Positions 33,565 through 49,993 of a stretch of 64,000 bases of DNA are shown piece by piece. Source of the stretch: an uncultured Saprospiraceae bacterium. GTDB taxonomy: Bacteria > Bacteroidota > Bacteroidia > Chitinophagales > Saprospiraceae. The notes below the pieces were generated by a model. It was not told the DNA's origin. It worked only from the letters and a program-made list of their open reading frames with translations, and made no database searches. Location: the NCBI GenBank assembly GCA_937941095.1, contig CALDYJ010000005.1:1-64000 (forward strand). Direction: 5' to 3'. Every line of letters begins with the position of its first letter. Within the stretch, counting starts at the first letter, position 1. The position numbers and the translations under genes were made by a program.

Positions 33565-36081
33565 TTAGTCAAGCAATAATTTATGCGTATAAACTTGTCC
33601 TTTTGTACTAAAACGCACAAAGTAAATGCCAGGGTGCCATTCTGATAAATCCATTTGAATATTAGCCTTCTTAGTATCTAAGTTTCTTTCAATTATTTTT
33701 CTTCCTTGCACAGAAAAGATTTCTAAAGATTTAATCTCTTCTTCCAAACTTTCAAAAGTAATGTTCAATATTCCTTGACTAGGATTTGGGTAAATCTTCA
33801 GCGTTTCAAACAAATCAGCTTTAGAGACTGCTACAACATCATCCACATCAAAAGGGCCAAGTTCAAATTCACATCCGTTTGCATCTACAACAGTACAAGT
33901 GTAAGAACCCATACCTAAATTACTAACATTTGGCTCTGTATCTCCCGTGCTCCAATTATAAACATAAGGTGGTGTTCCTCCAATAATGACTACGTTGATG
34001 TTGCCATTCGGATTACCATTAGTTGCATCAGTAATCAATAAGTTGTCTAATGAAAATTGTTCTGGTTCTTCAATGACGATCTCTGCTTCAAAAACACAAT
34101 TGCTATTATCAGTTACAGTAAGTTGGTAAGTTCCAGCGCTTAGCATGCTTGGATTTTGACCAGAAAGTCCACCCGTCCAATCAAAGGTGTAAGGCGGCGA
34201 ATTCCCTGAGTTTATACTCAAATCTATTGAGCCATCATTTCCACCATGACAAGTAACATTTTGACTGCTTATTTCTACACCTAAACTACCTACTACTTCA
34301 ACAGCAATAAGGCAGGTCGCACTATTACCAGCTTCATCAGTTGCGGTCCAGGTTACAGAAGTTAAACCATTAGAATAAATGTCCTGTGCAGAATTGGTAT
34401 TGTTGAAATCATTAATAAAGCTTACATCCCCACAAAGATCACTTACGATTGGATCTGGAACCATCACGAAGGTGTCACAGACAGGCCCGCTTATATTTAT
34501 TGAGATTTCATCTGGACAAGAAATGGAAGGATTGGTTTGGTCTTCCACAGTTACATCAAAACTACATGAAGAACCATCAGGTAAAGTATAAACATTACTT
34601 GTTGTTCCTAAGGGAAAGTATCCACCTCTTTCTATACCTTCAGTTTGTGTTGGCGTGATGTTGTTACTTACCGTACCATTTAGTTCCATGATCAAAGATA
34701 GATTTTGGCCTACAACAGAAGTCAAGGTTGGTTCTGGCCAACCACATTCAACAGAAGAAAAATAACTTGGATAGATTTCTGTTTCCAAAGAGTAACCCGC
34801 AATAAATTGCAAAGTGTTTGTTTCTGGAACAACCAATTCTATTACTATGATTTTATTTCTTTCAATGTCATAATTGGTAAATAACTCATAGTTCATATTA
34901 CCTAAAGTAGGAAGAACAAATTGCTTGCTAAATACTAAGGTCATATTTTCGTAGAGTAAAGCTCCGTCCAATTCATAAATGTTTAAATCTATTTGTTGAT
35001 CATTCGTATCTGCAAATCCGATTCCAATGCTAATGGTTTCAATGTGAAAATCACCAACTACTCCCATTCCAGCTAAGTCAAAAACCCTAAGGTGTCTTGA
35101 TTCTTTATTTAATCCACAACCAAAAGAACCATCAACAGTATTTGAAAGGTTCTGTCTCAAAGAAATATCAATTTCGTTGCATATTCCCGAAACTTCTGGG
35201 ATTTCATAATTGACAAATGCACCACAAGAATCTTGATCGGTTCCCACAGTTATGTCTTCTGGACAACTTACGAAACCTGGGTTTGAACCATCTTCTACGA
35301 TGATGGAAAAACTGCATATGCCCTCGTTACCTGCCTCATCTAAAATGCTAAAAGTATTCACTGTGGTTCCAACTGGAAAAAAAGAATTACTTGCTAAACC
35401 TGCAATTTGAAAAACTGTATCCACGCCACAATTATCTTCAAATTGTGGCAAGGTATAAGTGACTTGCGCTAAGCAAGTATTAGGATCTGCATCAACCGTA
35501 ATGTCAGGAGGACAATTAGGCATTGGGTTTTCCACATCAGCTACAAAAACATCAAACCTACAAGTGTCAGTTAAACCAATACTGTTTACTGCTACAAACT
35601 CATTTATAGTATAACCTAAAGGAAATAGACCTCCAGATGGAATACCGGCGATGATGTAAATTGAATCAAAACCACAATTGTTTACTGTTTGAATTTCGTA
35701 TTCGACAAATCCCCCACATTCACCAGGAGAGGACTCCGCAGAAATAGGCGTAGGACAAATGATAAATGGAGCATCTATTTCTTGGACGATAATATTAAAT
35801 GAGCAGGTATCTGCATTCCCAATTTCATCGATGACTACCCAAGTATTTGTAGTGACCCCTACCGGAAAACTTCCACCTGATCCGATGCCATCTATGAGGA
35901 AGATGGTCTCGTTTGGACAAGTGTTATCTGAGGTGACGGTATAAGTGCCAATCGCAGAACAAGCACCTGAAATTGCCGTCAATGTGATGTCTTCGGGACA
36001 ATTAATTGTAGGATTGCTTGCAGCGCAAATAATTGGTAAAACTATTGCATATATAGAAGTCAAGATACTTTTAAGAGTCAT
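33565..36081 (-). CDS. HYR/SprB-repeat cell-surface protein with T9SS type A tail
   Basis: This 838-residue protein has a signal peptide (about 1-21). HYR-like domains occupy about 24-100, 101-182 and 183-263, each with an NCPxDIT-type opening, two Cys pairs and a FPVGTTxNT-type block. A fourth HYR domain (264-514) is split by a foreign-looking insert at about 302-478, and a fifth follows to about 597. Two SprB-like repeats (VTCHGGNDGSIDLS...; NGNPNGNINVVIIGGTPPY) and a type A sorting domain (IYPNPSQG..., from about 764) complete it. HYR domains are adhesion-type Ig folds. The protein probably sits on the surface, with a role in adhesion or gliding; the exact ligand is unknown. Confidence 0.88.
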   Translation of the reverse strand: MTLKSILTSIYAIVLPIICAASNPTINCPEDITLTAISGACSAIGTYTVTSDNTCPNETIFLIDGIGSGGSFPVGVTTNTWVVIDEIGNADTCSFNIIVQEIDAPFIICPTPISAESSPGECGGFVEYEIQTVNNCGFDSIYIIAGIPSGGLFPLGYTINEFVAVNSIGLTDTCRFDVFVADVENPMPNCPPDITVDADPNTCLAQVTYTLPQFEDNCGVDTVFQIAGLASNSFFPVGTTVNTFSILDEAGNEGICSFSIIVEDGSNPGFVSCPEDITVGTDQDSCGAFVNYEIPEVSGICNEIDISLRQNLSNTVDGSFGCGLNKESRHLRVFDLAGMGVVGDFHIETISIGIGFADTNDQQIDLNIYELDGALLYENMTLVFSKQFVLPTLGNMNYELFTNYDIERNKIIVIELVVPETNTLQFIAGYSLETEIYPSYFSSVECGWPEPTLTSVVGQNLSLIMELNGTVSNNITPTQTEGIERGGYFPLGTTSNVYTLPDGSSCSFDVTVEDQTNPSISCPDEISINISGPVCDTFVMVPDPIVSDLCGDVSFINDFNNTNSAQDIYSNGLTSVTWTATDEAGNSATCLIAVEVVGSLGVEISSQNVTCHGGNDGSIDLSINSGNSPPYTFDWTGGLSGQNPSMLSAGTYQLTVTDNSNCVFEAEIVIEEPEQFSLDNLLITDATNGNPNGNINVVIIGGTPPYVYNWSTGDTEPNVSNLGMGSYTCTVVDANGCEFELGPFDVDDVVAVSKADLFETLKIYPNPSQGILNITFESLEEEIKSLEIFSVQGRKIIERNLDTKKANIQMDLSEWHPGIYFVRFSTKGQVYTHKLLLD

Positions 36082-36318: not shown

Positions 36319-39300
36319 ATGGCCCGTAAATTAGTACATCAAATCAATGATTTGAACTATAAGACTGTGTTCTTATGGCTTTTGGCGTTTATGGCCCTTA
36401 ATGTAAATCTTACGGCCCAGTTTTCTAAAAGTTGGGACGATTATTATGGCGGTGAAGGATACGATGAAATACAAAAAATTATTGAAGTTTCAGATGGCTA
36501 TATTTTTGGCGGGACTGCTTCTTATACCACAACAGGAGACCCACCAGTTAGTTACGGTTTAAGTGACTACTGGATATTCAAAACTGATTTTGACGGAAAT
36601 TTAATTTGGAGTGAAGTCTATGGAGGATTAAGCACAGATATTCTGCTTGATATCATTCAGACCTCTGATGGCGGCTTAATGTTAGCTGGTTTTTCATTTT
36701 CGGATGACGATGGGATTAAGACTACACCTTCTTTCGGAGACAAAGACATGTGGCTCGTAAAATTAGATGCTGCGAGAAATGTTGAATGGAATAGAGCCTA
36801 TGGAGGCAATGCAGAAGATCATCTCTCAAGCATAAAACAGACTTCGGATGGAGGGTATGTATTTGGTGGTTGGACCTCAAGTTTGGTAAGTGGAAATGTA
36901 AGTCAACCTTCAAGAGGAGGAGAACATGACATTTGGTTATTGAGAGTCGATGGCAATGGTAATTTGATGTGGGAAAAAAGAATAGGTGGAAACGATAACG
37001 ATCTTATGCAGTCAATGATCTTAGATCAAAATGAAGACATCATACTTGCAGGGGTTTCAAAATCGGGGATTAGTGGAGAAAAAACCGAAGCATCTTTTGG
37101 TAACCAAGATTATTGGATAGTAAAGTTAAACCTAGCCGGAGGCATCATTTGGGATAGAACACATGGCGGCTTATGGGTAGATCAAGCTCAAACCATAAAA
37201 GAATCACCTACAGGAATAGTTTATGTGGGTGGATATTCTGAATCACCAATAAGTGGCGATAAAACTTCTCCAAATAAAGGAGGAACAGATTATTGGTTAA
37301 TCTCTATTGATGAGAATGGGGATAAGCTATTGGACAGGACTTACGGAGGTGATGCGAATGATGTCATGCGTGATATAGATTTTTTACCTAAAGGTCAATT
37401 GGTCATTGGTGGGCAATCAGGTTCTGATCAAAGTGGAGATAAAACAGAAGATTCTTATGGGAATTTTGATTATTGGACCATTGTTTTAGATGATGCAAAT
37501 AATGTTTTCTGGGACGCTACTTTCGGAGGAGGAGACATTGATAACTATCAAACGGTAAAAAGACTTTCTAATGGAAGTTTAATGGCAGGTGGATTTTCTT
37601 TGTCTGAAAGCGGAGGTAATATATCAGGTCAAACAAATGGAATACAAGATGGCTTGTTGGTCGTTTATGATTGTACACTGGAAAATTATTTAGACCTCGG
37701 TTTAGATACCTTGGTTTGTCAATACGAACCTATCCTTTTAGATGCTGATGTGGGATTAGATTATGTTTGTGAATACGCATGGGCTGATGGGTACACAGAA
37801 CCAAACAGGATTGTTATTGCTGATGGATCTGCTACTTATTCGGTAACGGTAACTGATGTTTATGGATGTACTGCTACGGATGATTTTAACATTGAAACAT
37901 TACCTGCTCCAGTATTTGACCTCGGAAATCCATTGAGAGGATTGTGTATCGGAGATACTATTTATTTAAACACAACAGTTTCTGGTCCTGGCATTACTTA
38001 TGATTGGAATACCGGTAGTACGCTAAACTTTGTTGAAGTCACAGAATCTGGTATGTATGAATTAACCATAACAAATGGGATCGGATGTACTTTCGCAGAC
38101 ACTGTAACAATTGTAGATTACCTTTTACCTGCTTTTGATTTAGGTGATGATGTCAGCATTTGTGAAGGAGATACTACGACTTTTACAGTAGCTCACCTCG
38201 GACCAGGTTACGAATGGCAAGATGGATCGACTGAGTTTTTTATCCAAGCTTTTGAAGCTGGTAACTATACTGTTACTGTTACTGATAATAATCAATGTTC
38301 AAATACTGATGATGTTAATTTGCTTTTCTTCCCAGAAATGGAAGTTGACTTAGGTCTGGATACAACCATTTGTTTAAATGAAGAAGTGGCATTAAATGCA
38401 ATTATTTCCAATTGCCCAACTTGCACCTACCTTTGGGAAGATGATTCAACAGAAGGATTAAGAGTAGTTTCACCCCTTGAACATACCTTGTATGCTGTGA
38501 CAGTTACTGATGAAAATGCATGCAGGTCAATTGATGAAGTCAATGTTTTTGTTCACCCTTTACCTGTGCTTACTCTTCCGGAAGACAATGAAATTTGTCT
38601 CGGTGATTCCATCGATATCGTTTTTGAAATTGAAAGCATAGGGCCTTTTGATGTAGTCCTTGACATCAATGGAAGCATAGCTAATTATACAGACATTTTT
38701 ACAGGTCATACGGTTAGGTTTGGACCAAGTGAGACAACTACCTACACGCTTGTGAGTGTTACTGATGCTTCTTTCTTTGAATGTCAATATACTGAACCGA
38801 TAGAAACAACCATTACTGTTCATGATGTTTACAACATTGATTTAGAAAGAGAAATTTGTGAAGGAGACAGTTTATTAATAGGAGATACTTATCAATATGA
38901 ATCTGGTGTATACATAGATTCTTTGCTAAGCATTAACAACTGTGATAGCATCATCAATGTTGAACTGATCGTAAATGAAGTTTCTGTAGAAATTATAGAA
39001 ATGACAACTTGTAATGAGGAGGAAGTTAGAAATGATTCTGTTTATTTTTCCAATCAATTTAATTGCGATAGTCTAGTCGTTACCATTATAGAATTATTGC
39101 CTTCTGACTTTAATGAGTTTAATGAAACAAGCTGTGATGAAAACCTCGTGGGGTCTGACACTTTATTTTTAACTAACCAATTTGGTTGCGATAGTATTAT
39201 TGTTAATAATACTTTGCCATTACCAACTGATGTTTCTAATTTAAATGAGTTGACGTGTGATATCGATCAAGCTGGATTGGATACTTTGTTTTATACAAAT

Positions 39301-41700
39301 CAATACGGTTGTGATAGTTTAATCATAACGGACTATTTATACATTCCTCCTGATACCATTCAGCTAGCAGAAGGCAGTTGCTTTCCTGAAGAAGTAGGAA
39401 TGGATACCCTATTTTTATCGAATCAATATGGTTGTGATAGCACCATAATTACAACGACAACTTTACTGCCAAGCGATACCTTGGTTAATAATTTGATTAC
39501 TTGTGTGAGTAGTGAAGTAGGTAGTGATACAATAATCGTTATCAATCAATTTGGCTGTGAAAGTTTAGTGGTTACTAATTTTGTTTTAGCCTTATCTGAT
39601 ACAATAAATGTAACGATGGCTGATTGCAATCCAGATAATGTTGGCATTGATTCAACCTTGTACATGAATTCTACTGGTTGTGATAGCCTCGTTATTACTA
39701 CCACATTATTGTTGGAACCAGATACCATTTTGTCAGGGACCATTACCTGTAATCCAGCACAAGTTCCAATCGATACGATATCATATTTGGACTTGGAAGG
39801 TTGTGATAGTGTTGTCATTACTACGTATACATATTTACCACCAGAAACAATTAATATAGAAGAATTTACTTGCGACATTAACCAAACAGAACCAGATACT
39901 TTTAATTTGTCCAATCAGTATGGCTGTGATAGTATTGTGATAGCGAATTACGAATACGTACCACCAGATACAACTATGCTACAAGGGACTACTTGTGATT
40001 CTTCATTAGTGGGCATCCAAGTGGAAATCTTAATGAATAGTATAGGATGTGATTCAGTCTTGTTGACAGACAACGTATTGCTGCGACGAGACACAACAGT
40101 GATCGAAGATTTTATTTGTAATGAATCCACTTATGCAGATACACTTTTATTGACCAATGAAGTAGGCTGTGATAGTTTAGTGATTACAAATTTTACGGGT
40201 GTAGATACAGAAATGGTCTTTGTTGACGATAACACATGTGATCCTGATCAAGCTGGCATTGTAACAGAAATTTTAATGGATCAATACGGCTGCGACAGTA
40301 TTGTGGTAACGAATTATATGTTGATTGATGGAGACACTACTGATCTTGTGGAACTTGTTTGTTTACAAAGCCAAGTCGGAACTGACACTGTAGTATTCCA
40401 AGGAGAACTCTGTGATAGTTTAGTGGTGACGCATTTTAATTTTTCACCACCAGATTCAACACTTTTTGAGTTCAACAGTTGTAATCCACTGGATACAGGA
40501 ATTTTTATAGAGACCTATACAAATGAAATAGGCTGTGATAGTGTAGTAATCAATCACATTCAATTTTCAGAAATGGATTCATCCTCAGTTTATGAATACA
40601 GTTGCTTAACCTTAGATACGGTATTGAATATTGTTGTTTTTGAAAATCAGTTTGGTTGTGACAGTACCGTTTATGAATACACTATTCCAGGTTTTGATAC
40701 AACTTATATGATTGAATACACATGTGATCCATCTGAGGTTTTTGCAGACACCCTTGTTTACCAAGATTCAAATGGCTGCGACAGTCTGGTTATTACAGGC
40801 ATTGAATTAAGCGCAGCCTTTGAAACCTATTTTGTAATTGCTACTTGTGATAACGATGAGGTTAAATCGGATACTGTTTACTTAAGGACGGATGAAGGTT
40901 GCGATAGTTTATTGATTTATAATACCATCTTGGATTTACCTAGTTTATTAGTTGATCAATTTGATCCTCCATGTAATGAAGATGATGGTGGAATTATAGA
41001 AGTTCAAATTGATGGGGGCACTGAACCATATGACATATACCTAAATGGTGATTATTATAGCTCTCAGAATGTTTTTACTGGTTTAAGTACTGGAACATAT
41101 GAAGTGTTGATCAATGATGCAAATGGTTGCGAGAATGACATGCTTATAACACTGGTCCAGGAAGGAGGCATTAGCATTGATGTTGAGCAGATCTACCTAA
41201 TCGACTATGGAGATTACGTCGACATACAACCTATGATTAATGGTGATTTAGATACCTTCTTTTGGCAAGGAATAGATTCCTTGATCTGTGAAGATTGTTT
41301 GAATCAATACTTCCTACCGGAAGAAAGTATGACTTTAAACCTAACAGCAGTTGATACAGAAGGCTGTAAAGATTTCAAGCAAGTAATCATTGTTGTGGAG
41401 AAAAATTATGATGTATATGTACCATCAGCTTTTTCACCCAATGGAGATGGCATCAATGATGTATTCTTGATTTATGGAACGGAAAACATAAAAGAGATTA
41501 GATCATTTGAAATCTTCGATCGCTGGGGTGAAAATTTATTTTATAAGGAGAATCCTCAAATTAATGAAGAATTAGATGGCTGGGATGGCGTTTTTAAAGG
41601 AAAAACCATGAATCCTGGAGTTTACTTGTATCAATTTGAAGTTGAATTTTTTGATGGATACAAAGAATTTAGAAAAGGAGATTTTAGTCTTATTCGCTAA
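36319..41700 (+). CDS. Giant modular surface protein: seven propeller-like repeats, Ig-like domains, 16 cysteine-pair repeats, T9SS type B tail
   Basis: This 1793-residue protein has a signal peptide (about 1-33, ending LTAQ). Seven repeats of about 60 residues follow (to about 450), each starting W-x3-YGG and including a DYWIVKLD-type strand, which suggests a seven-bladed beta-propeller. Five Ig/PKD-like units (about 455-835) begin with DLGxD...C and end TVTVTDxxxC. Then come one degenerate and sixteen regular 41-residue cysteine-pair repeats (898-1551), a SprB-like unit (about 1552-1612), and the CHU_C/type B sorting domain (PSAFSPNGDGINDVF, about 1699-1793). Type B tails are linked with gliding-motility and adhesin proteins. 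It is probably exported by T9SS and held at the surface. It lies directly upstream of a polysaccharide operon. The function is unknown. Confidence 0.9.
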   Translation: MARKLVHQINDLNYKTVFLWLLAFMALNVNLTAQFSKSWDDYYGGEGYDEIQKIIEVSDGYIFGGTASYTTTGDPPVSYGLSDYWIFKTDFDGNLIWSEVYGGLSTDILLDIIQTSDGGLMLAGFSFSDDDGIKTTPSFGDKDMWLVKLDAARNVEWNRAYGGNAEDHLSSIKQTSDGGYVFGGWTSSLVSGNVSQPSRGGEHDIWLLRVDGNGNLMWEKRIGGNDNDLMQSMILDQNEDIILAGVSKSGISGEKTEASFGNQDYWIVKLNLAGGIIWDRTHGGLWVDQAQTIKESPTGIVYVGGYSESPISGDKTSPNKGGTDYWLISIDENGDKLLDRTYGGDANDVMRDIDFLPKGQLVIGGQSGSDQSGDKTEDSYGNFDYWTIVLDDANNVFWDATFGGGDIDNYQTVKRLSNGSLMAGGFSLSESGGNISGQTNGIQDGLLVVYDCTLENYLDLGLDTLVCQYEPILLDADVGLDYVCEYAWADGYTEPNRIVIADGSATYSVTVTDVYGCTATDDFNIETLPAPVFDLGNPLRGLCIGDTIYLNTTVSGPGITYDWNTGSTLNFVEVTESGMYELTITNGIGCTFADTVTIVDYLLPAFDLGDDVSICEGDTTTFTVAHLGPGYEWQDGSTEFFIQAFEAGNYTVTVTDNNQCSNTDDVNLLFFPEMEVDLGLDTTICLNEEVALNAIISNCPTCTYLWEDDSTEGLRVVSPLEHTLYAVTVTDENACRSIDEVNVFVHPLPVLTLPEDNEICLGDSIDIVFEIESIGPFDVVLDINGSIANYTDIFTGHTVRFGPSETTTYTLVSVTDASFFECQYTEPIETTITVHDVYNIDLEREICEGDSLLIGDTYQYESGVYIDSLLSINNCDSIINVELIVNEVSVEIIEMTTCNEEEVRNDSVYFSNQFNCDSLVVTIIELLPSDFNEFNETSCDENLVGSDTLFLTNQFGCDSIIVNNTLPLPTDVSNLNELTCDIDQAGLDTLFYTNQYGCDSLIITDYLYIPPDTIQLAEGSCFPEEVGMDTLFLSNQYGCDSTIITTTTLLPSDTLVNNLITCVSSEVGSDTIIVINQFGCESLVVTNFVLALSDTINVTMADCNPDNVGIDSTLYMNSTGCDSLVITTTLLLEPDTILSGTITCNPAQVPIDTISYLDLEGCDSVVITTYTYLPPETINIEEFTCDINQTEPDTFNLSNQYGCDSIVIANYEYVPPDTTMLQGTTCDSSLVGIQVEILMNSIGCDSVLLTDNVLLRRDTTVIEDFICNESTYADTLLLTNEVGCDSLVITNFTGVDTEMVFVDDNTCDPDQAGIVTEILMDQYGCDSIVVTNYMLIDGDTTDLVELVCLQSQVGTDTVVFQGELCDSLVVTHFNFSPPDSTLFEFNSCNPLDTGIFIETYTNEIGCDSVVINHIQFSEMDSSSVYEYSCLTLDTVLNIVVFENQFGCDSTVYEYTIPGFDTTYMIEYTCDPSEVFADTLVYQDSNGCDSLVITGIELSAAFETYFVIATCDNDEVKSDTVYLRTDEGCDSLLIYNTILDLPSLLVDQFDPPCNEDDGGIIEVQIDGGTEPYDIYLNGDYYSSQNVFTGLSTGTYEVLINDANGCENDMLITLVQEGGISIDVEQIYLIDYGDYVDIQPMINGDLDTFFWQGIDSLICEDCLNQYFLPEESMTLNLTAVDTEGCKDFKQVIIVVEKNYDVYVPSAFSPNGDGINDVFLIYGTENIKEIRSFEIFDRWGENLFYKENPQINEELDGWDGVFKGKTMNPGVYLYQFEVEFFDGYKEFRKGDFSLIR
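39010..40971 (+). repeat. Sixteen tandem 41-residue (123-bp) cysteine-pair repeats inside the giant surface gene
   Basis: Each unit reads C-x17-C-D-S-[LIV] followed by about 22 residues to the next Cys. A consensus is TCDPxxVGxDTLxxxNQxGC, then DSLVITxxxLxPPDT. Several units keep exactly 41 residues, and a few have 16 instead of 17 between the cysteines. DNA identity between units is low, so the array is old or under selection at protein level. Confidence 0.88.
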
Positions 41701-41889: not shown

Positions 41890-44100
41890 ATGGACTTTGG
41901 ATATATTTTTAAAATATTATTAAGAGGAAAGTGGTTGATCCTAACGGCGATCATAGTTCCTGCAATTGCAGCTTTCCTTTATGTTAATACCCTTGAAAAG
42001 ACCTTCAAATCTGAGGCCCTTATTTCTACAGGGGTATTAGGATCTGCTGGATTAGATCCAGAGGAAGATAGACCATACCTCCAATCGGACTTAATAAAGA
42101 TGAGTTTCAATACTTATGTTACTAAGATTCAAAGTGCATCTATGCTGCGTTTATTAGGCTATAAGATGTTAATGCATGAGCTTGATAGTGAAAACGAGCC
42201 TTTCAGAAAACTTGAAGGCGAAGAAATAGAAAAAGTAAACTCAGTTAACCTTCAAAGGTTGTACGATAAAATGGCCGAGCGTTTTGAAGCCTTAAATGGT
42301 GGAATGTTTGATGCCTCTGTAGAAAGAGACTATCAAGAAGTCGCAGAAGCATTTAATTATGACATCGAGGCTTTAAAAGATGATTTAACAGTTTATAGAT
42401 CTGGTGAAACAGACTACTTAGGCATCACTTACAAATCAGGGAATAAATTCTTATCTGCATACTTGGTGAATGAGTTATGCGATTTGTTTTTATCCTCCAT
42501 GAAATATGACCAACAAAAAGAATTGGTCGAGCGATTTGAATTTGCCTCCCGAGAATCAGTGCATGCTAGAAGAAATCTTGACTCTTTGAAGAATACTCTC
42601 AATGCTTATAAGATTGAACATAATATATTAGATCTTGATGCTGAAGCTTCTGAATTGATAGAGCAAATTGGTGGCATCCAACAACTACAAAATAAATCCT
42701 TAACAGACTTACCTTCTCTTCAAGAGAAACTGAGAGTCATAGAAAGTGATTTGAATTCAAGTAAAACAAATAAGGTTAGAAAGCAAATGAACAAGAGGGC
42801 TGAAAGTGATGACCTTATCTATATAAAAAAACAAATAACCACGCTAGAAGAACAATACATCATCACCAAAGATGAAAACCTTAAAGCCGAAATCAATATG
42901 CTTAAGAAGCAAAGAGATGGATACATCATTGATTATACTTCAACGGAAGTTTCAGATGCTTCGATCGTAGATATTGATGAAGACAAGGAGAAATTGGTCT
43001 TGGCTACTAAAATGGAATACATAGATGCTGTCTCTAGTAAAACTGCGATTTCGGAAATATTAGGAAGTGCAAAATCAAGAGCAAGAGCTTTAGTAAGACA
43101 TAATGCTTTCATCTCCAAATTGAGTAATGAACTATCAATTGCAGAAGAGGCTTATGAAAACTTCAAAGAGGAACAAAGAGATTCAAAATCCAAATTAGAC
43201 AAGTCTTCTTTTCCACTTAAAGTCAGAGAACAAGCATATGTAGCTAAAAAGGCGGAATCAAACCATAAGGCTTTGATATCTGCATTTTCTGGTGTAGTAG
43301 GAGGGGCTTTTGCTTCTATGTTACTTTTAATGTTGGCTTTCTTTGATACCACATTAAACAATACCAACCAATTTGAAAAATTTACTGATTTGGACCTAAT
43401 TGGAACATTAAATCAGTTGAAAGAGAAAAATTTTGACCTTAAAGAGTTGTTTGGTTCTGAATTGAACAACCAAAGTTTAGAAGTATTTAAAGAGTCCATA
43501 AGAAGTATGCGTTATGAGATTGAAAAATCCAGCGGATCATCTTTCTTATTTACTAGTACTAAAGAACAAGAAGGTAAAACTTTCATAATCATCATGTTAG
43601 CACATGCTTTAACTTTAAAAGGCAAGAAAGTGTTGATCATTGATACTAATTTTAAAAACAATTCTTTAACCAGAATCTTCAATGAAGACTCTAATCAAAA
43701 CAAGCTAACCACTAGATTAATTGGGGAAGCGAATCTTGAGCAAGAATTTGAGACCAAAAACGCATCCGGAACGGGTCAATTCAAGTTAGATAATGTAGAC
43801 ATTCTGGGTAATAGAGGAGGAATGAGTTCTCCTTCTGAGATTTTTGCAGGAAAAGAGTTTAAAAAATTGATTGAAGATTTTGAACATAATTACGATTACA
43901 TCTTTTTAGAAGGCCCTTCTCTTAATAAATATGCAGATTCCAAAGAGCTAACAGAATACGTGGATAAAGTTATTACAGTATTCTCAGCAGAAGAAAACAT
44001 CACTGATGCTGACAGGAAGTCTATTAGTTATTTACAAAAATTGAATGGAAAATTAATGGGTGCTGTCTTGAATAGGTTGGAAATGATCAACTTAAACTAA
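41890..44100 (+). CDS. Wzz/BY-kinase-like polysaccharide co-polymerase with degenerate ATPase domain
   Basis: This 736-residue inner-membrane protein has a first helix at about 15-32, a large periplasmic coiled-coil part, a second helix at about 460-482, and a cytoplasmic P-loop domain (about 530-736). This is the layout of GumC/Wzc proteins that set chain length and drive polysaccharide export. The Walker A lysine and threonine are kept (EGKT, Lys563). The second motif reads IIDTNFK, with Asn in the place of the usual second Asp, and Walker B reads IFLEGP with Glu for Asp. The C-terminus (LEMINLN) has no tyrosine cluster, so autophosphorylation is doubtful. It opens a polysaccharide operon. 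Confidence 0.85.
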   Translation: MDFGYIFKILLRGKWLILTAIIVPAIAAFLYVNTLEKTFKSEALISTGVLGSAGLDPEEDRPYLQSDLIKMSFNTYVTKIQSASMLRLLGYKMLMHELDSENEPFRKLEGEEIEKVNSVNLQRLYDKMAERFEALNGGMFDASVERDYQEVAEAFNYDIEALKDDLTVYRSGETDYLGITYKSGNKFLSAYLVNELCDLFLSSMKYDQQKELVERFEFASRESVHARRNLDSLKNTLNAYKIEHNILDLDAEASELIEQIGGIQQLQNKSLTDLPSLQEKLRVIESDLNSSKTNKVRKQMNKRAESDDLIYIKKQITTLEEQYIITKDENLKAEINMLKKQRDGYIIDYTSTEVSDASIVDIDEDKEKLVLATKMEYIDAVSSKTAISEILGSAKSRARALVRHNAFISKLSNELSIAEEAYENFKEEQRDSKSKLDKSSFPLKVREQAYVAKKAESNHKALISAFSGVVGGAFASMLLLMLAFFDTTLNNTNQFEKFTDLDLIGTLNQLKEKNFDLKELFGSELNNQSLEVFKESIRSMRYEIEKSSGSSFLFTSTKEQEGKTFIIIMLAHALTLKGKKVLIIDTNFKNNSLTRIFNEDSNQNKLTTRLIGEANLEQEFETKNASGTGQFKLDNVDILGNRGGMSSPSEIFAGKEFKKLIEDFEHNYDYIFLEGPSLNKYADSKELTEYVDKVITVFSAEENITDADRKSISYLQKLNGKLMGAVLNRLEMINLN

Positions 44101-44138
44101 GAAGTACTTAATTTTTTTACAATTCGGGAATCATCAAA

Positions 44139-45554
44139 ATGGCGGCAGCTGGTAAATCATATTGGATAAGATCTGGATTCTTTTCGATTCTTGAAAGGCT
44201 TTCCATGATCATATTCAGTTTTGGAGCCTTCATTTTCGTAGTACGACTTTATCCGATGGAGATTTATGGATATTGGGTACTTTTCTTATCAGCAACCAGC
44301 TTCTTAGAAATGGCGAGAAACGGTTTAATCCAAAATGGATTAATAAAGTTTTTAACAGTAGCCGAATCAAAATCCGAAGAAGGAAAAATATCTACAGCTT
44401 CGCTTGCATTAAATGCAATGCTTACCTTTTTTGCTGTTTTATTGCTTATCGCCCTTGCCAAACCCTTGAGTGTATTATGGGATGCCCCAATGATTGTGAA
44501 TTTATTTCTAATCTACACCATTACCACAGTTATCATTTTATTTCAAGTGCACATTAACTTTGTTCAAAATGCAAATTTGAACTTCAAAGGTCCAATGGTG
44601 AGTAATATCTTGAGATCGGGGATTTACTTTATTTTGATGGCTTGGGTTTATTTTAGTGTTAAATTCAAAGGGATGGAATTGCCTCCTTTAGAGTGGTTGG
44701 CAGGATTTCAAATATTAGGCGCAATAGGAGGAGTTATAGGAACTTATTTGACAGGCAAAAAGTATTTGGTTTTTTCTAAAAAAATAGATTGGGATTGGGT
44801 AAAAAAGCTCTTTTCTTATGGAAAATATGTTTTTGGTACTAATCTAAGTACAATGCTCTATAAAAATACAGACAGATGGATGTTAGGAGCCATGCTTAGC
44901 GGCTCCGGAGCTGTAGCCCTATACGATGTCTGTATAAAAATAAATAACCTCTTAGAGGTCCCTACACAATCAATAGCCCAAGTAGTTTTTCCACAAGGGG
45001 CCAAAACTGCTGCAACAGGCACAAAAAAAGAGATCAAAGAGCTCTATGAAAGAGCCGTTGGAGGAATATTAGCCTTAGTTATACCAGCTTCGATTGTGGT
45101 ACTTCTGTTTCCAAGTCAAATTCTTAGGATAATTGCAGGACATGAATATATGGATGCGGTTAATCTATTGATCGTTACAGTCTTTTTTGCATTGATTTTT
45201 CCATTTAATAATCAATTTGGGACAATCCTTGATTCTATAGGCAGACCGAAGATCAATTTTTACTTTGTAGTCTGTAGCGCCACTTTAAACGTCATATTAA
45301 ATTATTTTTTTATTAGTAAATACGGGCTTATGGGGGCTGCTTACGCTACTTTGCTCTCCTATGGAATAACCTTTGTTGTAGATCAAATTATATTATATAA
45401 AATGTTTGGGACTAAACCATGGAATGCATTTGTTTATATCCCCAAATTTTATGTGATCGGATGGAAGTATGTAAAGGACTATTTAAAGAAAGATAATACA
45501 AGTAAAACAGGTAACTTACGTAGTAAAATAACAGAAAATACCATAGATAATTAA
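44139..45554 (+). CDS. Wzx-like oligosaccharide flippase (MOP superfamily)
   Basis: This 471-residue protein has about 12-14 hydrophobic helices and the polysaccharide-transporter (PST) pattern. It opens with a short amphipathic N-terminus and has FSYGKYVFGTNLSTMLYKNTDRWMLGAML in the middle, a segment conserved in flippases of this group. It would turn lipid-linked sugar units across the inner membrane. The start is 38 nt after the Wzz-like gene and the stop 19 nt before the next, so one operon. The basic C-terminal tail is cytoplasmic. Confidence 0.88.
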   Translation: MAAAGKSYWIRSGFFSILERLSMIIFSFGAFIFVVRLYPMEIYGYWVLFLSATSFLEMARNGLIQNGLIKFLTVAESKSEEGKISTASLALNAMLTFFAVLLLIALAKPLSVLWDAPMIVNLFLIYTITTVIILFQVHINFVQNANLNFKGPMVSNILRSGIYFILMAWVYFSVKFKGMELPPLEWLAGFQILGAIGGVIGTYLTGKKYLVFSKKIDWDWVKKLFSYGKYVFGTNLSTMLYKNTDRWMLGAMLSGSGAVALYDVCIKINNLLEVPTQSIAQVVFPQGAKTAATGTKKEIKELYERAVGGILALVIPASIVVLLFPSQILRIIAGHEYMDAVNLLIVTVFFALIFPFNNQFGTILDSIGRPKINFYFVVCSATLNVILNYFFISKYGLMGAAYATLLSYGITFVVDQIILYKMFGTKPWNAFVYIPKFYVIGWKYVKDYLKKDNTSKTGNLRSKITENTIDN

Positions 45555-45573
45555 CTTAGTAGATAGCTAGCAA

Positions 45574-47568
45574 TTGCGAAAAACACCAGACATAATATAT
45601 TTTACCATATTTAGATGGGATAATAACTACTCATCTAGCTCTCATTCCATTGCTAGAGAAGCTGCAAAGCAGGGTACACGGGTGTTTTATATCAATCATC
45701 CTTTTACTTATAAGTATTTTCTAAATGCTGAAATGAAGAAAGTCATCAGCAGACACAGATCCAAACTTTTAAAAGGAAAACCTTATGAAGATACGGATGT
45801 GAAAACGCCAGAAAACCTTCATTCAATCATCACACCATTGATGTATCCAATCAATAGGCTACCTCCTGGTAAAACTTATGAATGGTGGTTAGCAAAAAAT
45901 GATAAAAAAGTAAGAGATACCATCAAATTCATCATTAATAAGTTTGATGTGAAAGACTACATATTCATCAATTGTTTTGATCCATTCTATCAAAATGTTC
46001 TACCAAAAGAGCATATGCCTTTGGTAGATATTTATCAATCGGTTGATGACATTTCTCAAAACCCATACACCATCAGGCATGGAGTAGAGCAAGAAAAGGT
46101 TTCTGTTGCGAAAGCAGATATGGTGATTACCACCTCTACTAACTTGAAAGAAATCATGTCTGCATATTCAAACGAGGTTCATACCATCCATAATGCAGCA
46201 GCCATCGATATCTTTAGCAGAACCTATAAAGAAAAGTTTGAAAGACCAGAAGAGATAAAGAATATTACCAATAAAATCATTGGTTTTACTGGATGTTTAG
46301 ATGCAGTAAGGATAAATTTTGACCTATTATATGAAATTGGTGTAAAACATTCTGACAAGACTTTATTGATTGTAGGGCCGTATGATGAAGCTGAAATGAA
46401 AAAAGCTCAATTAAATACGCTAGACAATATTATCTTTACGGGAGCGAAAAACATAAATGATCTACCTCAGTACCTACATTTTATGGACTGTGTGATCATC
46501 CCTTTTGCTAGAAATACCTTAACAAGAAGTATTTATCCATTAAAAATAAATGAATATTTAGCTTCAGGAAAGCCGGTTGTTTCTTCTAATTTTTCTGTTG
46601 ATATACTGACTTTTAAGGATGTAATTCATTTAGCAGAAAATGATGAAGATTTTATTAATAAGATAAATGACGCACTTGCTGATCAATCTGAAGAGAATTT
46701 AAAGATTAGATTAGAAGTGGCTCAAAAAAATAGTTGGAAAGCCAGAGTAGAACAGCTATGGTATGTAGTAAAAGATTTTAATATTAGACAAAGAAATAAA
46801 GAAGTGTCAGTTACTGAATTAGCAAATAGTGGACTAAAAGACAATAAGAGTGGCATTGTCAGAAAATTGGACGACAGACCAGCTTTAAAGTCTTTTCTTC
46901 ATTGGTGTCTAATACCAAAAAATGACTACAAACCAAGATGGTGGGTAAGGCATTTGTTAACACCTTTGATTCATACTCGTGGCAAAGGATCGAAAGTGCG
47001 TAGAAAAGCAAGAATAGACGTTTTGCCGAACAACACTTTTCATCTTGGAGAAAGAGTTTTGATCGAAGACTTTGCAGTATTGAACAATGCCGTTGGAGAT
47101 CTTATCATTGGCGATAGATCACTTGTAGGAATTTCTAGTACCGTAATTGGCCCAGTTACCATTGGAAACGATGTGATGCTTGCTCAAAATATTGTGATCT
47201 CAGGATTGAATCATGGATATGAAGACATCAAGTATTCAATCAGAGAACAACTGACGATCACGAATCCCATTCTTATTAAAGACGAAGCTTGGATCGGAGC
47301 GAACTCTGTTATTGTGGCAGGGATAACCATTGGAAAGCATTCTATTGTTGCAGCAGGAAGTGTAGTTACGAAAGATGTTCCTGATTATACGATTGTTGCT
47401 GGAAACCCTGCAAGAATCGTCAAACAATATAACTTTGATGAAAATACATGGGAAAAGGTGAAATCGTTTTCCAGATCCAAAACTGAAGAATATGCAAAGA
47501 TCGAGACTGAAGCAAATTATCCGGGAAAAAAACAACCTGGTACTCTCTCCCAAGGAAAAACTGATTGA
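45574..47568 (+). CDS. Fusion of a GT4-like glycosyltransferase and a hexapeptide-repeat acyltransferase
   Basis: This 664-residue protein carries two enzymes. Residues 1 to about 410 form a GT-B glycosyltransferase, with the donor region near IFTGAKNINDLPQYLHFMD and YPLKINEYLASGKPVVSS. Residues about 470-640 form a left-handed beta-helix acetyltransferase of the WcaF/maltose O-acetyltransferase type, with LGERVLIEDFAVLNNAVG, VMLAQNIVISGLNHGYED, and the terminal VAGSVV-like and AGNPARIVKQYN blocks. A linker of about 60 residues joins them. The fusion suggests that one sugar is added and then acetylated. The start is TTG, 19 nt after the flippase stop, with the enzyme fold beginning at once. 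It is the only clear glycosyltransferase in the operon. Confidence 0.88.
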   Translation: MRKTPDIIYFTIFRWDNNYSSSSHSIAREAAKQGTRVFYINHPFTYKYFLNAEMKKVISRHRSKLLKGKPYEDTDVKTPENLHSIITPLMYPINRLPPGKTYEWWLAKNDKKVRDTIKFIINKFDVKDYIFINCFDPFYQNVLPKEHMPLVDIYQSVDDISQNPYTIRHGVEQEKVSVAKADMVITTSTNLKEIMSAYSNEVHTIHNAAAIDIFSRTYKEKFERPEEIKNITNKIIGFTGCLDAVRINFDLLYEIGVKHSDKTLLIVGPYDEAEMKKAQLNTLDNIIFTGAKNINDLPQYLHFMDCVIIPFARNTLTRSIYPLKINEYLASGKPVVSSNFSVDILTFKDVIHLAENDEDFINKINDALADQSEENLKIRLEVAQKNSWKARVEQLWYVVKDFNIRQRNKEVSVTELANSGLKDNKSGIVRKLDDRPALKSFLHWCLIPKNDYKPRWWVRHLLTPLIHTRGKGSKVRRKARIDVLPNNTFHLGERVLIEDFAVLNNAVGDLIIGDRSLVGISSTVIGPVTIGNDVMLAQNIVISGLNHGYEDIKYSIREQLTITNPILIKDEAWIGANSVIVAGITIGKHSIVAAGSVVTKDVPDYTIVAGNPARIVKQYNFDENTWEKVKSFSRSKTEEYAKIETEANYPGKKQPGTLSQGKTD

Positions 47569-47635
47569 ATACATTAGTTTAGGAGTAGTAGCCTTAACTT
47601 TTTTTGCTATTTTTTTAAAAGTGGTTTTCATCTAA
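47492..47635 (+). CDS. Possible small single-helix membrane protein (47 residues)
   Basis: An ATG at 47492 opens a 47-codon frame, in a different frame from the fusion gene that it overlaps by 77 nt, ending 12 nt before the next gene. The product has a charged N-terminal half (MQRSRLKQIIREKNN) and a single strongly hydrophobic helix at the C-terminus (YISLGVVALTFFAIFLKVVF). The hydrophobic half falls in otherwise unexplained sequence between two genes with tight spacing. This looks like a translationally coupled small membrane protein of the polysaccharide machinery. I do not recognise a family, and chance is possible in AT-rich DNA. Confidence 0.45.
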   Translation: MQRSRLKQIIREKNNLVLSPKEKLIEYISLGVVALTFFAIFLKVVFI

Positions 47636-47647
47636 GAAAATTCTTGA

Positions 47648-49168
47648 ATGGCCTCCTCCGAATTCGTAAACGATTTTTCAAAGTGGCTACGCCACAAAGT
47701 AGTATTACAAAAACTCAATAATCCCTTAGGGTATATATTTATTGTGCTTTTTAGTGTGATGCTAGGTTTAGTGATCGGTATGACTGGCATCAAAACCGGT
47801 GCTATCATGCTAGGAGGCTTGATGGCTCTGCCAGTCTTGTTCTTGATCTTAGCTGATTTACAAATTGGCTTAATCCTTATCTTAATTGTAGCTTTTCTTA
47901 CAAACCTTCTTGCAAAAATTGGAGACTATCCAGTTGGAATTGCTTTAGATGCCTTGGCGTACTTTATGTTGTTTGCCATTTTTATACGACAAATCAAAGA
48001 GCGTAACTGGGAGTTTGTAAACAACCCAATAAGTTTCTTCATCATCATATGGATTTGCTATAGCATGATTATGGCCTTAAATCCTGAAGCAGAGTCTATA
48101 AAAGCTTGGCTTTACTCTGTGAGAGCTATGGCCGGATTGATCATCATTTTTTTTATAGCGCTTTATGCATTTAACTCTTTAGAGCGAATAAAGTTGATGT
48201 TCAAGGTCATATTATTCCTTTCATTCTTAGCAGCACTTTACGGCTTAAAGCAAGAATGGATAGGTTTTGAAGATTGGGAAATGGCTTGGCTTAGAGCAAA
48301 TGAGCGAAGATGGCTATTGATAGTTCAGTGGGGAAGGGTAAGGGTCTTTTCAATATTTTCTGATCCTACGACCATGGGTATACCGATGGTCTATATGTCC
48401 GTCTTTTCTATTATACTCGCTACTGCACCCATAAAAATTTGGAAAAGAGTCGCACTCATTGTTGCAGCCTGTGCCATGCTCCTTTGCATGGGTTATGGAG
48501 GCTCAAGAACACCAGTCGTTTTAATACCAATTGGTTTTATGTTTTATGTCTTGCTGACTTTGCAAAGAAAAATTTTAATGGTATCTGGGATCGGTTTTTT
48601 ATTATTCTTTGTCATAATGCTAAAAGACAGTTCCAATCCTGTGCTTTATCGATTACAGTCCGCCTTTAGAAGTAATGATGCTTCTGTACAGGTTAGGTTA
48701 GATAATCAAAGATTAATACAACCTTACATTCGGACTCATCCATTTGGATCTGGTTTAGGTTCAACAGGGATTATGGCACAACGATTTTCACCTAATTCTA
48801 AGTTTGCTAACTTCGCACACGATAGTGGATTTGTAAGGGTAGCTGTAGAGATGGGTTGGATCGGCTTGTTAATATATATGGCTTTACTTTTTAAAATCTT
48901 GCAAACAGGGGTTTATTACTATCTCCGTGTACGGGATCCGGTCATCAAAACCATGTATCTGGCCATAAATTGTTTAATTTTCATTTTGATTGTTGCATCC
49001 TATCCTCAAGAGATTATTATCTTATTGCCTACCAGTATCATTTTTTACATTTGTGCTGCAGCAATTATAAGACTCAAAGATTTTGATCCAGCCTTCAAAG
49101 CATTACAAGAAGGTTCTCTTCGAGGAAAGGAAATGATCAAGGTAGAAGAAGAAGAAATTAGGGTGTAA
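47648..49168 (+). CDS. O-antigen polymerase/ligase-like membrane protein
   Basis: This 506-residue protein has about 11-12 membrane helices and a long periplasmic loop in the second half (near SAFRSNDASVQVRLDNQ to HPFGSGLGSTG). This matches the Wzy/WaaL O-antigen ligase family, where the loop carries catalytic Arg/His residues; GGSRTPVVLIPIG in a middle helix is also typical. It would polymerise or attach the repeat units flipped by the Wzx-like protein. The cytoplasmic tail is acidic (VEEEEIRV). It is 21 nt from the next gene, continuing the operon. Confidence 0.85.
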   Translation: MASSEFVNDFSKWLRHKVVLQKLNNPLGYIFIVLFSVMLGLVIGMTGIKTGAIMLGGLMALPVLFLILADLQIGLILILIVAFLTNLLAKIGDYPVGIALDALAYFMLFAIFIRQIKERNWEFVNNPISFFIIIWICYSMIMALNPEAESIKAWLYSVRAMAGLIIIFFIALYAFNSLERIKLMFKVILFLSFLAALYGLKQEWIGFEDWEMAWLRANERRWLLIVQWGRVRVFSIFSDPTTMGIPMVYMSVFSIILATAPIKIWKRVALIVAACAMLLCMGYGGSRTPVVLIPIGFMFYVLLTLQRKILMVSGIGFLLFFVIMLKDSSNPVLYRLQSAFRSNDASVQVRLDNQRLIQPYIRTHPFGSGLGSTGIMAQRFSPNSKFANFAHDSGFVRVAVEMGWIGLLIYMALLFKILQTGVYYYLRVRDPVIKTMYLAINCLIFILIVASYPQEIIILLPTSIIFYICAAAIIRLKDFDPAFKALQEGSLRGKEMIKVEEEEIRV

Positions 49169-49189
49169 ACCCTTTAAAAATTTGAAATA

Positions 49190-49993
49190 ATGAATTTGAA
49201 ATACCTAACGTTTAAGTTATGCTTAGCCATATTTTTGCTTACCGCAAATGGGGATCTAAATGCACAAAAGGTAAACTTCGATACCTTGGTTTATTCTCTT
49301 GATAATCCGAGTTATGATTTTGCAAATTATTTGGTTACACTGGCTTGGGAAAATAATCCTGAAAATCGTGCGTTCAATCACAACATTGAAATAGCAGAGA
49401 GTGAAATTAAAATCGCCAAAAGAGATTGGGCCCAGGACATAGGTTTGACTTTTAACTTAAATGAAAATAACATTAATCCACCAACTGTTCTAACAGAAGA
49501 ACAAAGAATGATTTTGGAAGCTGCGGGGATATCAGATGATGCTTTCAATTTTGGTACATTCAGTCCATTTCCTAGGTATAATTTAGGAGTGCAATTTAAT
49601 CTCGGAAGATTAATTACCTTGGGTAAAAAGGTTGACATTACAGAAAACCAGTTAGAATTAGCTAAGTTAGATTCTGATCAAAAGAAAATGATTATCCGTG
49701 CAGAAGTAATGCGAAGGTATCAAACCTATCTTCAAGCTTTTGAAATTTATAAAATTCGAGTAAAATCGGAACAAGATGCTGATGAAATTTTCACTTTAAT
49801 GAGATCGCGTTTTAGAGAAGGAAGTGTCAAGTTTGAAGAATTCAGTAGGTCATCTTCAGACTTACAGCAAGCAAAAGAAGGTGTTTTAGAAGCAAAAGGG
49901 AAAATAGATATCGCCGAAATAGACATCGAAGAAATGATCGGAATATCTTTAGAACAAGCAAGAGCTTTTCACAATGAAGCTTTTGAAAATTAA
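49190..49993 (+). CDS. Half-length TolC-like outer-membrane efflux/export protein
   Basis: This 267-residue protein has a signal peptide (about 1-25, ending LNAQ) and the features of one TolC repeat. It includes long amphipathic helices (NRAFNHNIEIAESEIKIAKRDW; QLELAKLDSDQKKMIIRAEVMRRYQTYLQAFEIYKIRVKS) and beta-rich stretches around NLGVQFNLG. Full TolC proteins have two such repeats and about 420-480 residues, so this is a half protein, yet it has a normal start and stop. In the operon it may be the outer-membrane exit or a partner of it. The AraC-type gene begins only 7 nt after its stop. Confidence 0.72.
   Translation: MNLKYLTFKLCLAIFLLTANGDLNAQKVNFDTLVYSLDNPSYDFANYLVTLAWENNPENRAFNHNIEIAESEIKIAKRDWAQDIGLTFNLNENNINPPTVLTEEQRMILEAAGISDDAFNFGTFSPFPRYNLGVQFNLGRLITLGKKVDITENQLELAKLDSDQKKMIIRAEVMRRYQTYLQAFEIYKIRVKSEQDADEIFTLMRSRFREGSVKFEEFSRSSSDLQQAKEGVLEAKGKIDIAEIDIEEMIGISLEQARAFHNEAFEN

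Follow-up and report, generated by a model that had tools for sequence, protein, structure and literature searches.

A proposed inter-unit disulfide ladder in the three-strand repeat stalk of a giant T9SS type B protein from Saprospiraceae

Introduction

Several described systems resemble parts of the protein reported here. SprB of Flavobacterium is a gliding adhesin that is secreted as a type B substrate of the type IX secretion system (T9SS), and it shares with the present protein both this export route and the character of a long repetitive surface protein. CylK catalyses an alkylation in natural-product synthesis, and its β-propeller region (PDB 7fh7, 7ron) resembles the head of the protein. 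Surface proteins of Bacteroidota carry a 51-residue unit with the pattern SGxYxDT...GCDS, a relative of the repeats that are the subject of this work. The closest solved relative that we found for the Ig-like part is grappling hook protein A (GhpA) of Aureispira sp. CCB-QB1 (PDB 9flp, 9fls, 9flu-9fly and 9g8b), whose host belongs to a genus of the same family, the Saprospiraceae. GhpA has 5898 residues and forms a heptameric hook, whereas the present protein has 1793 residues. GhpA is described briefly in a review and in a later paper (PMC11205867 and PMC13319060).

Covalent reinforcement of long stalks has also been described. The adhesin of Mobiluncus mulieris has a long Ig-like stalk that is reinforced by covalent bonds, and the cross-links described for it in PMC10619420 (ester, isopeptide and disulfide) are intramolecular within a domain, whereas each bond proposed here joins two successive units. 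The disulfides described for the SprB system in PMC12635249 join SprF/PorG to the track and do not join the repeats to each other. The titles and abstract openings of the literature matches listed contain no account of inter-domain disulfides in such rods; the GhpA paper lies outside this coverage, so the gap is no proof of novelty.

The window analysed here is a stretch of 64,000 nucleotides from an uncultured Saprospiraceae bacterium (GenBank assembly GCA_937941095.1, contig CALDYJ010000005.1, positions 1 to 64,000 of the forward strand). An earlier sequence-only reading of this window had drawn attention to a giant gene whose product contains sixteen cysteine-pair repeats, and had proposed that each repeat forms one disulfide within a stiff stalk. 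Here we analyse this protein and its relatives computationally, and arrive at a different pairing of the cysteines.

Results

Architecture and genomic setting

The open reading frame at positions 36319-41700 of the forward strand encodes the 1793-residue protein. Behind a propeller-like head it contains five Ig-like domains, a single 51-residue unit and an array of sixteen 41-residue units; two further Ig-like domains and a C-terminal sorting domain follow the array (Table 1). The sequence-only reading had assigned the protein to the T9SS type B substrates, and this was borne out, as the C-terminal domain exceeds the curated cut-offs of both PF13585 (E 2e-14, 53.9 bits against a cut-off of 27 in Pfam) and TIGR04131 (E 2.7e-14, 53.1 bits against 35 in NCBIfam); the protein has no SprB Pfam match. 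The seven repeats that had been claimed for the head were recovered as six blade motif starts located by script (residues 43, 101, 161, 222, 282 and 342) and a seventh recognized by eye (residue 402), with a spacing of 58-61 residues. These repeats align with the β-propeller region of CylK (phmmer E 3e-23, best stretch residues 82-339), from which the protein differs in that its putative propeller is fused to a secretion stalk. The five Ig-like domains of the earlier reading were likewise found, by eye, between the head and the 51-residue unit. Residues 452-858 match GhpA (9flp) over 13 stretches with a phmmer E of 1.8e-17; both proteins contain tandem Ig-like domains with a C1...GC pattern (C1 and C2 denote the first and second conserved cysteine of a domain or unit), which makes them homologous as tandem Ig rods. 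The C-terminal stretch of GhpA also weakly matches the last Ig-like domain and the sorting domain (E 0.0097).

Table 1. Features of the giant protein and of the genes that flank it in the window.
Feature	Residues	Window positions	Strand	Evidence
Hydrophobic N-terminal segment, likely export signal	1-35	36319..36423	+	direct from sequence
Propeller-like head, seven blade repeats of ~60 residues	36-451	36424..37671	+	motif starts, phmmer to CylK
Five Ig-like domains	452-840	37672..38838	+	phmmer to GhpA 9flp; domain count by eye
51-residue unit, C-x27-CDS, C847 and C875		38857..39009	+	hhalign to 41-residue unit
Sixteen 41-residue units, C-x17-CDS	898-1550	39010..40968	+	spacing, AlphaFold2, co-loss in relatives
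Ig-like domain with C1552 and C1604	1551-1612	40969..41154	+	sequence; Pfam BiPBP_C match below cut-off only
Last Ig-like domain, C2 = C1683, CxxC 1657/1660, without C1	1613-1697	41155..41409	+	cysteine list, boundary survey
T9SS type B C-terminal sorting domain		41410..41697	+	PF13585, TIGR04131
Divergent neighbour, HYR/SprB-repeat protein with T9SS type A tail		33565..36081	-	Pfam
Downstream polysaccharide genes: Wzz/AAA-type, flippase, glycosyltransferase-hexapeptide, O-antigen ligase-like		41890..49168	+	Pfam

The genes on either side are conserved. In four of five congeners the giant gene has retained both of its neighbours, the HYR/SprB-repeat protein with a type A tail on one side and, within the reach of the stretches compared, the first three polysaccharide genes (Wzz/Wzc, flippase and glycosyltransferase) on the other; in the window the flanking stretches cover positions 33565-36081 and 41890-49993. 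On the 9.5 kb contig of the fifth congener (L154) the polysaccharide genes give no match, and this contig may carry another paralogue. The conserved polysaccharide neighbours make binding of a glycan, or attachment to the capsule, a first guess for the role of the head.

The 41-residue array and its occurrence in relatives

The sequence-only reading described sixteen consecutive C-x17-CDS units with a period of mostly 41 residues, and counting and shuffling uphold this description. The spacing C-x17-C is present in 14 of the 16 units (x16 in units 10 and 12), CDS in 15 (CES in unit 5) and a length of 41 residues in 13 (40 in units 10, 12 and 14). The joint spacing C, +18, +41 occurs 12 times in the protein, a number that was reached in none of 10,000 shuffles of its sequence (shuffle maximum 2). 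The mean pairwise identity between units is 34% at the protein level and 48% at the DNA level (81 equal-length pairs), which marks them as old, diverged repeats. The array is also strikingly acidic, with 107 Asp/Glu against 4 Lys/Arg in 645 residues (residues 911-1555, window positions 39049-40983), a composition that may serve divalent cation binding or reflect a fit to a saline habitat.

The earlier reading could match the unit to no named domain and suggested a profile search. No described family was recognized: residues 898-1550 gave no match above cut-off among the 24736 models of Pfam or the 18950 of NCBIfam, only two chance-level rows falling inside the array (E 0.42 and 0.1). Two arrays of the 51-residue unit also reached no Pfam or NCBIfam cut-off, profiles of the array and of the 51-residue unit matched no PDB chain sequence up to E 10, and two array profiles gave no match to the GhpA sequences in the PDB. 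Enzyme-family matches of four other arrays (DUF6150, NAD_binding_2, HL_N-beta and EBV-NA3), a few of which, in two of the arrays, exceed the whole-protein Pfam cut-off, were discarded as repeat or low-complexity noise. Matches to a PHROG tail protein, Pom152 and phage-tail PDB entries were set aside as well, as they are located in the Ig region and not in the array.

Related arrays are common in the family. A two-unit profile matched 49 of 60 relatives at E <= 0.001, at least 162 of 398 Saprospiraceae genomes at E <= 1e-10 and at least 61 of 396 genomes of the order at E <= 1e-12, at least 14 of the last lying outside the family, in seven families; the family and order counts are lower bounds, at most 13 or 14 candidates having been scored per genome. 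The plasmid and phage collections contained no match to the profile at E <= 1e-5. Among 222 runs of at least three units in the fetched loci, the longest has 27 units, and 1263 of 1504 steps have a period of 41. The window's own genome encodes at least two other proteins with short 41-residue arrays, both at contig ends (G000:C167:12000-19660, L158; G000:C11:28000-35233, L159). One contig titled Rhodobacteraceae (L098) contains a Saprospiraceae-type array whose match identity (39%) and query range equal those of L099, and it is probably misbinned.

Strand arrangement from coevolution and structure prediction

Mean-field couplings were computed from 838 two-unit rows (effective number 654) after removal of invariant columns, and were compared with a column-shuffled control; pairs that join equivalent positions of the two units, and pairs separated by fewer than four residues, were excluded. 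Twelve couplings exceed the maximum of the control. Within a unit, the pairs 9-27, 13-23, 10-24 and 8-26 have a near-constant sum, as expected for an antiparallel strand pair. Between units (primes denote unit n+1), the pairs 41-29', 34-24' and 39-25', all above the shuffled maximum, have a near-constant offset, which places the last strand of unit n parallel to the second strand of unit n+1; further members of this parallel set (37-23', 38-28' and 40-30') lie below the control maximum. The other inter-unit couplings are 31-17', 33-15' and 32-15', along with the local pairs 41-5' and 41-6'. Each half of the data reproduces the antiparallel set and part of the parallel one, and some pairs fail to recur. 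In this pattern strand G pairs with A' in parallel and with F in antiparallel orientation, which, as read from couplings above the shuffled maximum, is how A', G and F are arranged in an Ig domain. According to the list of coupled pairs, C1(n) and C2(n+1) would both be located beside residues 30-33 of unit n.

The structure prediction of successive units that the sequence-only reading had suggested was made with AlphaFold2 for units 2-7 (78-row alignment; mean pLDDT 85.6, pTM 0.42), and yielded three strands per unit and thus not the complete two-sheet sandwich, of seven or more strands, of a full Ig domain. C-alpha models built on the couplings left the pairing of the cysteines unsettled in a first run (23 versus 20 Å); in a second run the inter-unit distance was the shorter one in 7 of the 10 best models, which are too loose to fix the pairing.

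Pattern of cysteine losses

To survey the cysteines, the open frames of 315 loci were searched with a profile whose register keeps both of them away from its ends. Hits that covered at least 30 of the 41 columns with both cysteine columns aligned were counted in runs of at least three, a cysteine within one residue of its column being scored as present. This yielded the 222 runs described above, with 1726 units in 185 frames from 167 of the 315 loci. Of the 1504 pairs of adjacent units, 1481 retain both C1(n) and C2(n+1) and 20 have lost both, whereas C2(n+1) alone is missing in three pairs and C1(n) alone in none. In contrast, C1 and C2 of one and the same unit are lost together in 0 of the 1726 units, which include 22 losses of C1 and 23 of C2. 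Permutation of the losses within runs produced 4.7 such pairs on average and 13 at most, and 0 of 20,000 permutations reached 20. Eighteen of the 20 paired losses belong to a single genus, in which they are found in four genomes (L175, L177, L208 and L233), and two to another genus (L216), so they are not 20 independent events and the independent number is small; some were probably spread by duplication within arrays. In places, the arrays of these four genomes (genus g85) lack the bridges at every second junction, as if a two-unit super-repeat had been duplicated.

In each of the three pairs in which only C2(n+1) is lost (one in L296, two in L243), the preceding unit has gained a cysteine (position 31, 33 or 32), in the region where coevolution also puts C1(n). 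Only 3 of the 1504 pairs have a cysteine anywhere between positions 29 and 34 of unit n, and these are exactly the three in which C2(n+1) alone is missing; the five further extra cysteines in the survey are at positions 15, 21 and 23. L243 and L296 thus present a natural rewiring of a disulfide, in which one unit loses C2 and the unit before it gains a cysteine at position 31-33. Two losses of C1 are located at the ends of runs: in L156 the sequence that follows also lacks C2 (judged by eye), and in L167/L024 the sorting domain follows immediately. Taken together, the co-losses and the compensations indicate that the bonds run from C1(n) to C2(n+1) and not within a unit.

Cysteines at domain boundaries and in Ig-like runs

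In 68 of 84 type B proteins the last domain before the sorting domain has C2, lacks C1 and contains no extra cysteine (counted by script), although owing to shared ancestry these are not 68 events. Of the four short arrays that were seen to abut the sorting domain, one is without its last C1 (L024/L167), and the three that keep C1 (L025, L027 and L031) have an extra cysteine in the linker. Against a boundary rule are the related L122 and L126, which contain C1 and C2 and no extra cysteine, and L064, L133 and L138, which contain an extra cysteine without C1; the remaining eight of the 84 include L024 and mixed or miscounted cases.

Full Ig-like domains follow a similar pattern. In 142 runs of adjacent Ig-like domains (404 domains), both cysteines are present in all 120 middle domains; the first domain lacks C2 in 44 of the 142 runs and C1 in none, and the last domain lacks C1 in 19 and C2 in none. 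This survey left out 474 of 1019 aligned domains, in which the C1 or C2 column was unaligned, and its seed domains all had both cysteines. In the window's protein, a hand count assigns 48 of the 53 cysteines to 24 pairs of the type C1(n)-C2(n+1), a series that begins with C452, close behind the head, and ends with C1683, close ahead of the sorting domain; another four cysteines make up two CxxC motifs, and C484 is left. For the five Ig-like domains the proposed inter-domain pairs would be 452-517, 467-590, 543-660, 615-735 and 685-822. C484, in the first Ig-like domain (window positions 37768-37770), is the only cysteine that the scheme leaves unpaired.

Two other pairings have to be weighed against bonds between C1(n) and C2(n+1). 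The claim of the sequence-only reading, that each 41-residue unit bonds its own two cysteines, would produce a string of independent stiff beads, and is in keeping with the presence of exactly two conserved cysteines per unit, about 17 residues apart, as well as with the two related last domains that have both cysteines and no extra partner (L122 and L126). Ig domains found singly would also fit it, in that 137 of 141 have both cysteines, although these domains may have partners in neighbours of another kind. However, intra-unit bonds are contradicted by the joint losses across junctions and their absence within units, and would not account for compensating cysteines that arise on the side of C1, in the unit preceding the one without C2; they would also leave over C452 and C1683 in the window's protein, and the couplings would put the two cysteines of one unit at opposite ends of strand G. 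We rejected this pairing on the co-loss pattern and consider it very improbable. A bond between C2(n) and C1(n+1), which are adjacent in sequence, would close a 23-residue hairpin, and the loss table does associate these cysteines in 10 double losses, but the association is produced by back-to-back losses in four genomes. This pairing has 11 + 13 discordant cases as compared to 0 + 3 for C1(n)-C2(n+1), no coupling above control connects the second and third strands of one unit, and we regard it as scarcely credible.

Kinship with the 51-residue unit and probable kinship with Ig domains

The sequence-only reading noted one degenerate SGxYxDT...CDS example ahead of the array and considered the array related to it; the example was located at C847-C875, and the kinship is confirmed by profile comparison, the 41- and 51-residue units matching each other with an hhalign E of 1.8e-10 (probability 97%). 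A unit of the 51-residue type, as recognized by a simple pattern, directly precedes 18 of 67 arrays. The two units share C1, a conserved glycine, C2 and the spacing of strands F and G, and differ by ten residues between C1 and the glycine, which in the longer unit contain a small hairpin between C1 and strand F. The glycine stands 12 residues before C2 in both, and is present in 451 of 514 strict 41-residue units and in all 50 of the 51-residue units aligned (50 of 58 were used). The array units nevertheless fall outside the definition of the longer unit (C1-x27-CDS with SGxY before strand F), as they contain C-x17-C or C-x16-C and no SGxY. The 51-residue unit in turn matches Ig-like domains with an hhalign E of 2.8e-5 (probability 74%).

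A model of the fifth Ig-like domain, the 51-residue unit and units 1-2 was predicted with AlphaFold2 from 40 rows, which comprise the window's sequence and 39 of 45 stretches found (mean pLDDT 88.9, pTM 0.57). In this model the Ig-like domain is a beta sandwich, and the 51-residue unit contains the array-type strands and a small hairpin (model residues 104-111). The model superposes over almost its full length on ~330 residues of GhpA, about four Ig domains, with 208-210 residues aligned at 19-22% identity (Z 7.4-7.9, rmsd 7.0-7.8 Å), so that the likeness to GhpA extends to the geometry of the rod. Among the best 50 rows, only GhpA chains superpose over the full length, the other rows ending at or before model residue 180. 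A Z below 8 can reflect no more than a common arrangement of strands; the aligned length and identity appear to set GhpA apart. On this modelling, the best explanation of the 51-residue unit is that it is an intermediate, with the three strands of the 41-residue unit and one small hairpin.

The array could instead be no remnant of an Ig domain, its three-strand repeat being of unrelated origin and having acquired the C...GCDS pattern by convergence. In favour of such convergence, the direct match between the Ig and 41-residue profiles is weak (probability 12%), and the array alone gives structural matches of at most Z 3.5: 185 of 980 aligned chains reach Z >= 2, the best being a GhpA fragment that is tied with unrelated rows, and in Foldseek the top entry, 9flp (E 5.9e-5, TM 0.20), is unconvincing as a global match. 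However, the profiles form a graded series from Ig domain to 51-residue unit to 41-residue unit, the A'/F/G pairing is present in the array by coevolution, Ig runs obey the same inter-domain cysteine rule, and the superposition on the GhpA rod runs from end to end. An unrelated origin is therefore unlikely, and the data suggest that Ig domains were whittled down to three strands with the chemistry of their junctions kept.

Discussion

Our results describe a protein that is very likely a T9SS-exported surface propeller, carried on a stalk of Ig-like domains that passes into sixteen three-strand units zipped by an inter-unit disulfide ladder. The computational basis of this model consists of the domain architecture, the co-loss of cysteines, coevolution and the predicted strands. 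The protein would leave the cell through the T9SS, stay at the surface and present its propeller on the stalk. The sequence-only reading had proposed a stiff stalk that holds the propeller head away from the cell; a stalk that carries the head is still the most sensible reading, whereas its stiffness, like the formation of the bonds in vivo and surface adhesion as the purpose, is a step that the model would predict.

In the proposed mechanism, the minimal unit would be an Ig-like domain cut down to strands A', F and G, in which A' is the last strand of the preceding 41-residue unit as written, G runs parallel to it, and F is antiparallel to G. C1 at the A' end of unit n would bond to C2 of unit n+1, where strand G begins, so that every disulfide crosses a junction. 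Each bridge would span 59 residues and recur every 41, causing the bridges to overlap along the chain and to enclose every residue of the array in at least one closed loop. By simple arithmetic, such a chain would pay out about 23 residues per two units under tension, as compared to 23 per unit with intra-unit bonds; given this limited pay-out, the stalk should be thin, need little protein per nanometre and resist unravelling. If each minimal unit, with its nine-residue strands, contributes about 3 nm, which is a guess, the array would extend roughly 45-50 nm.

The rule may reach beyond this protein. We think it probable that the T9SS rods of Saprospirales, from full Ig domains (including the GhpA hook) to the 41-residue half-Ig, share one principle: each disulfide ties domain n to domain n+1, and at the ends of the rod the cysteine that would have no partner (C2 in the first domain, C1 in the last) is either dispensed with or capped by an additional cysteine. 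The same inter-domain bonds may already be visible in the deposited GhpA models.

This work defines a repeat family that has no curated name and is widespread in Saprospiraceae. The 41-residue unit could serve protein design as a minimal module zipped by disulfides, and the loss pattern offers a residue-level rule for how such stalks are locked, with bonds between modules and not within them. If the rule is true, the rod is a continuous covalent ladder of which the 41-residue unit is the smallest known module, and bonds between modules would explain how a very thin fibre bears load.
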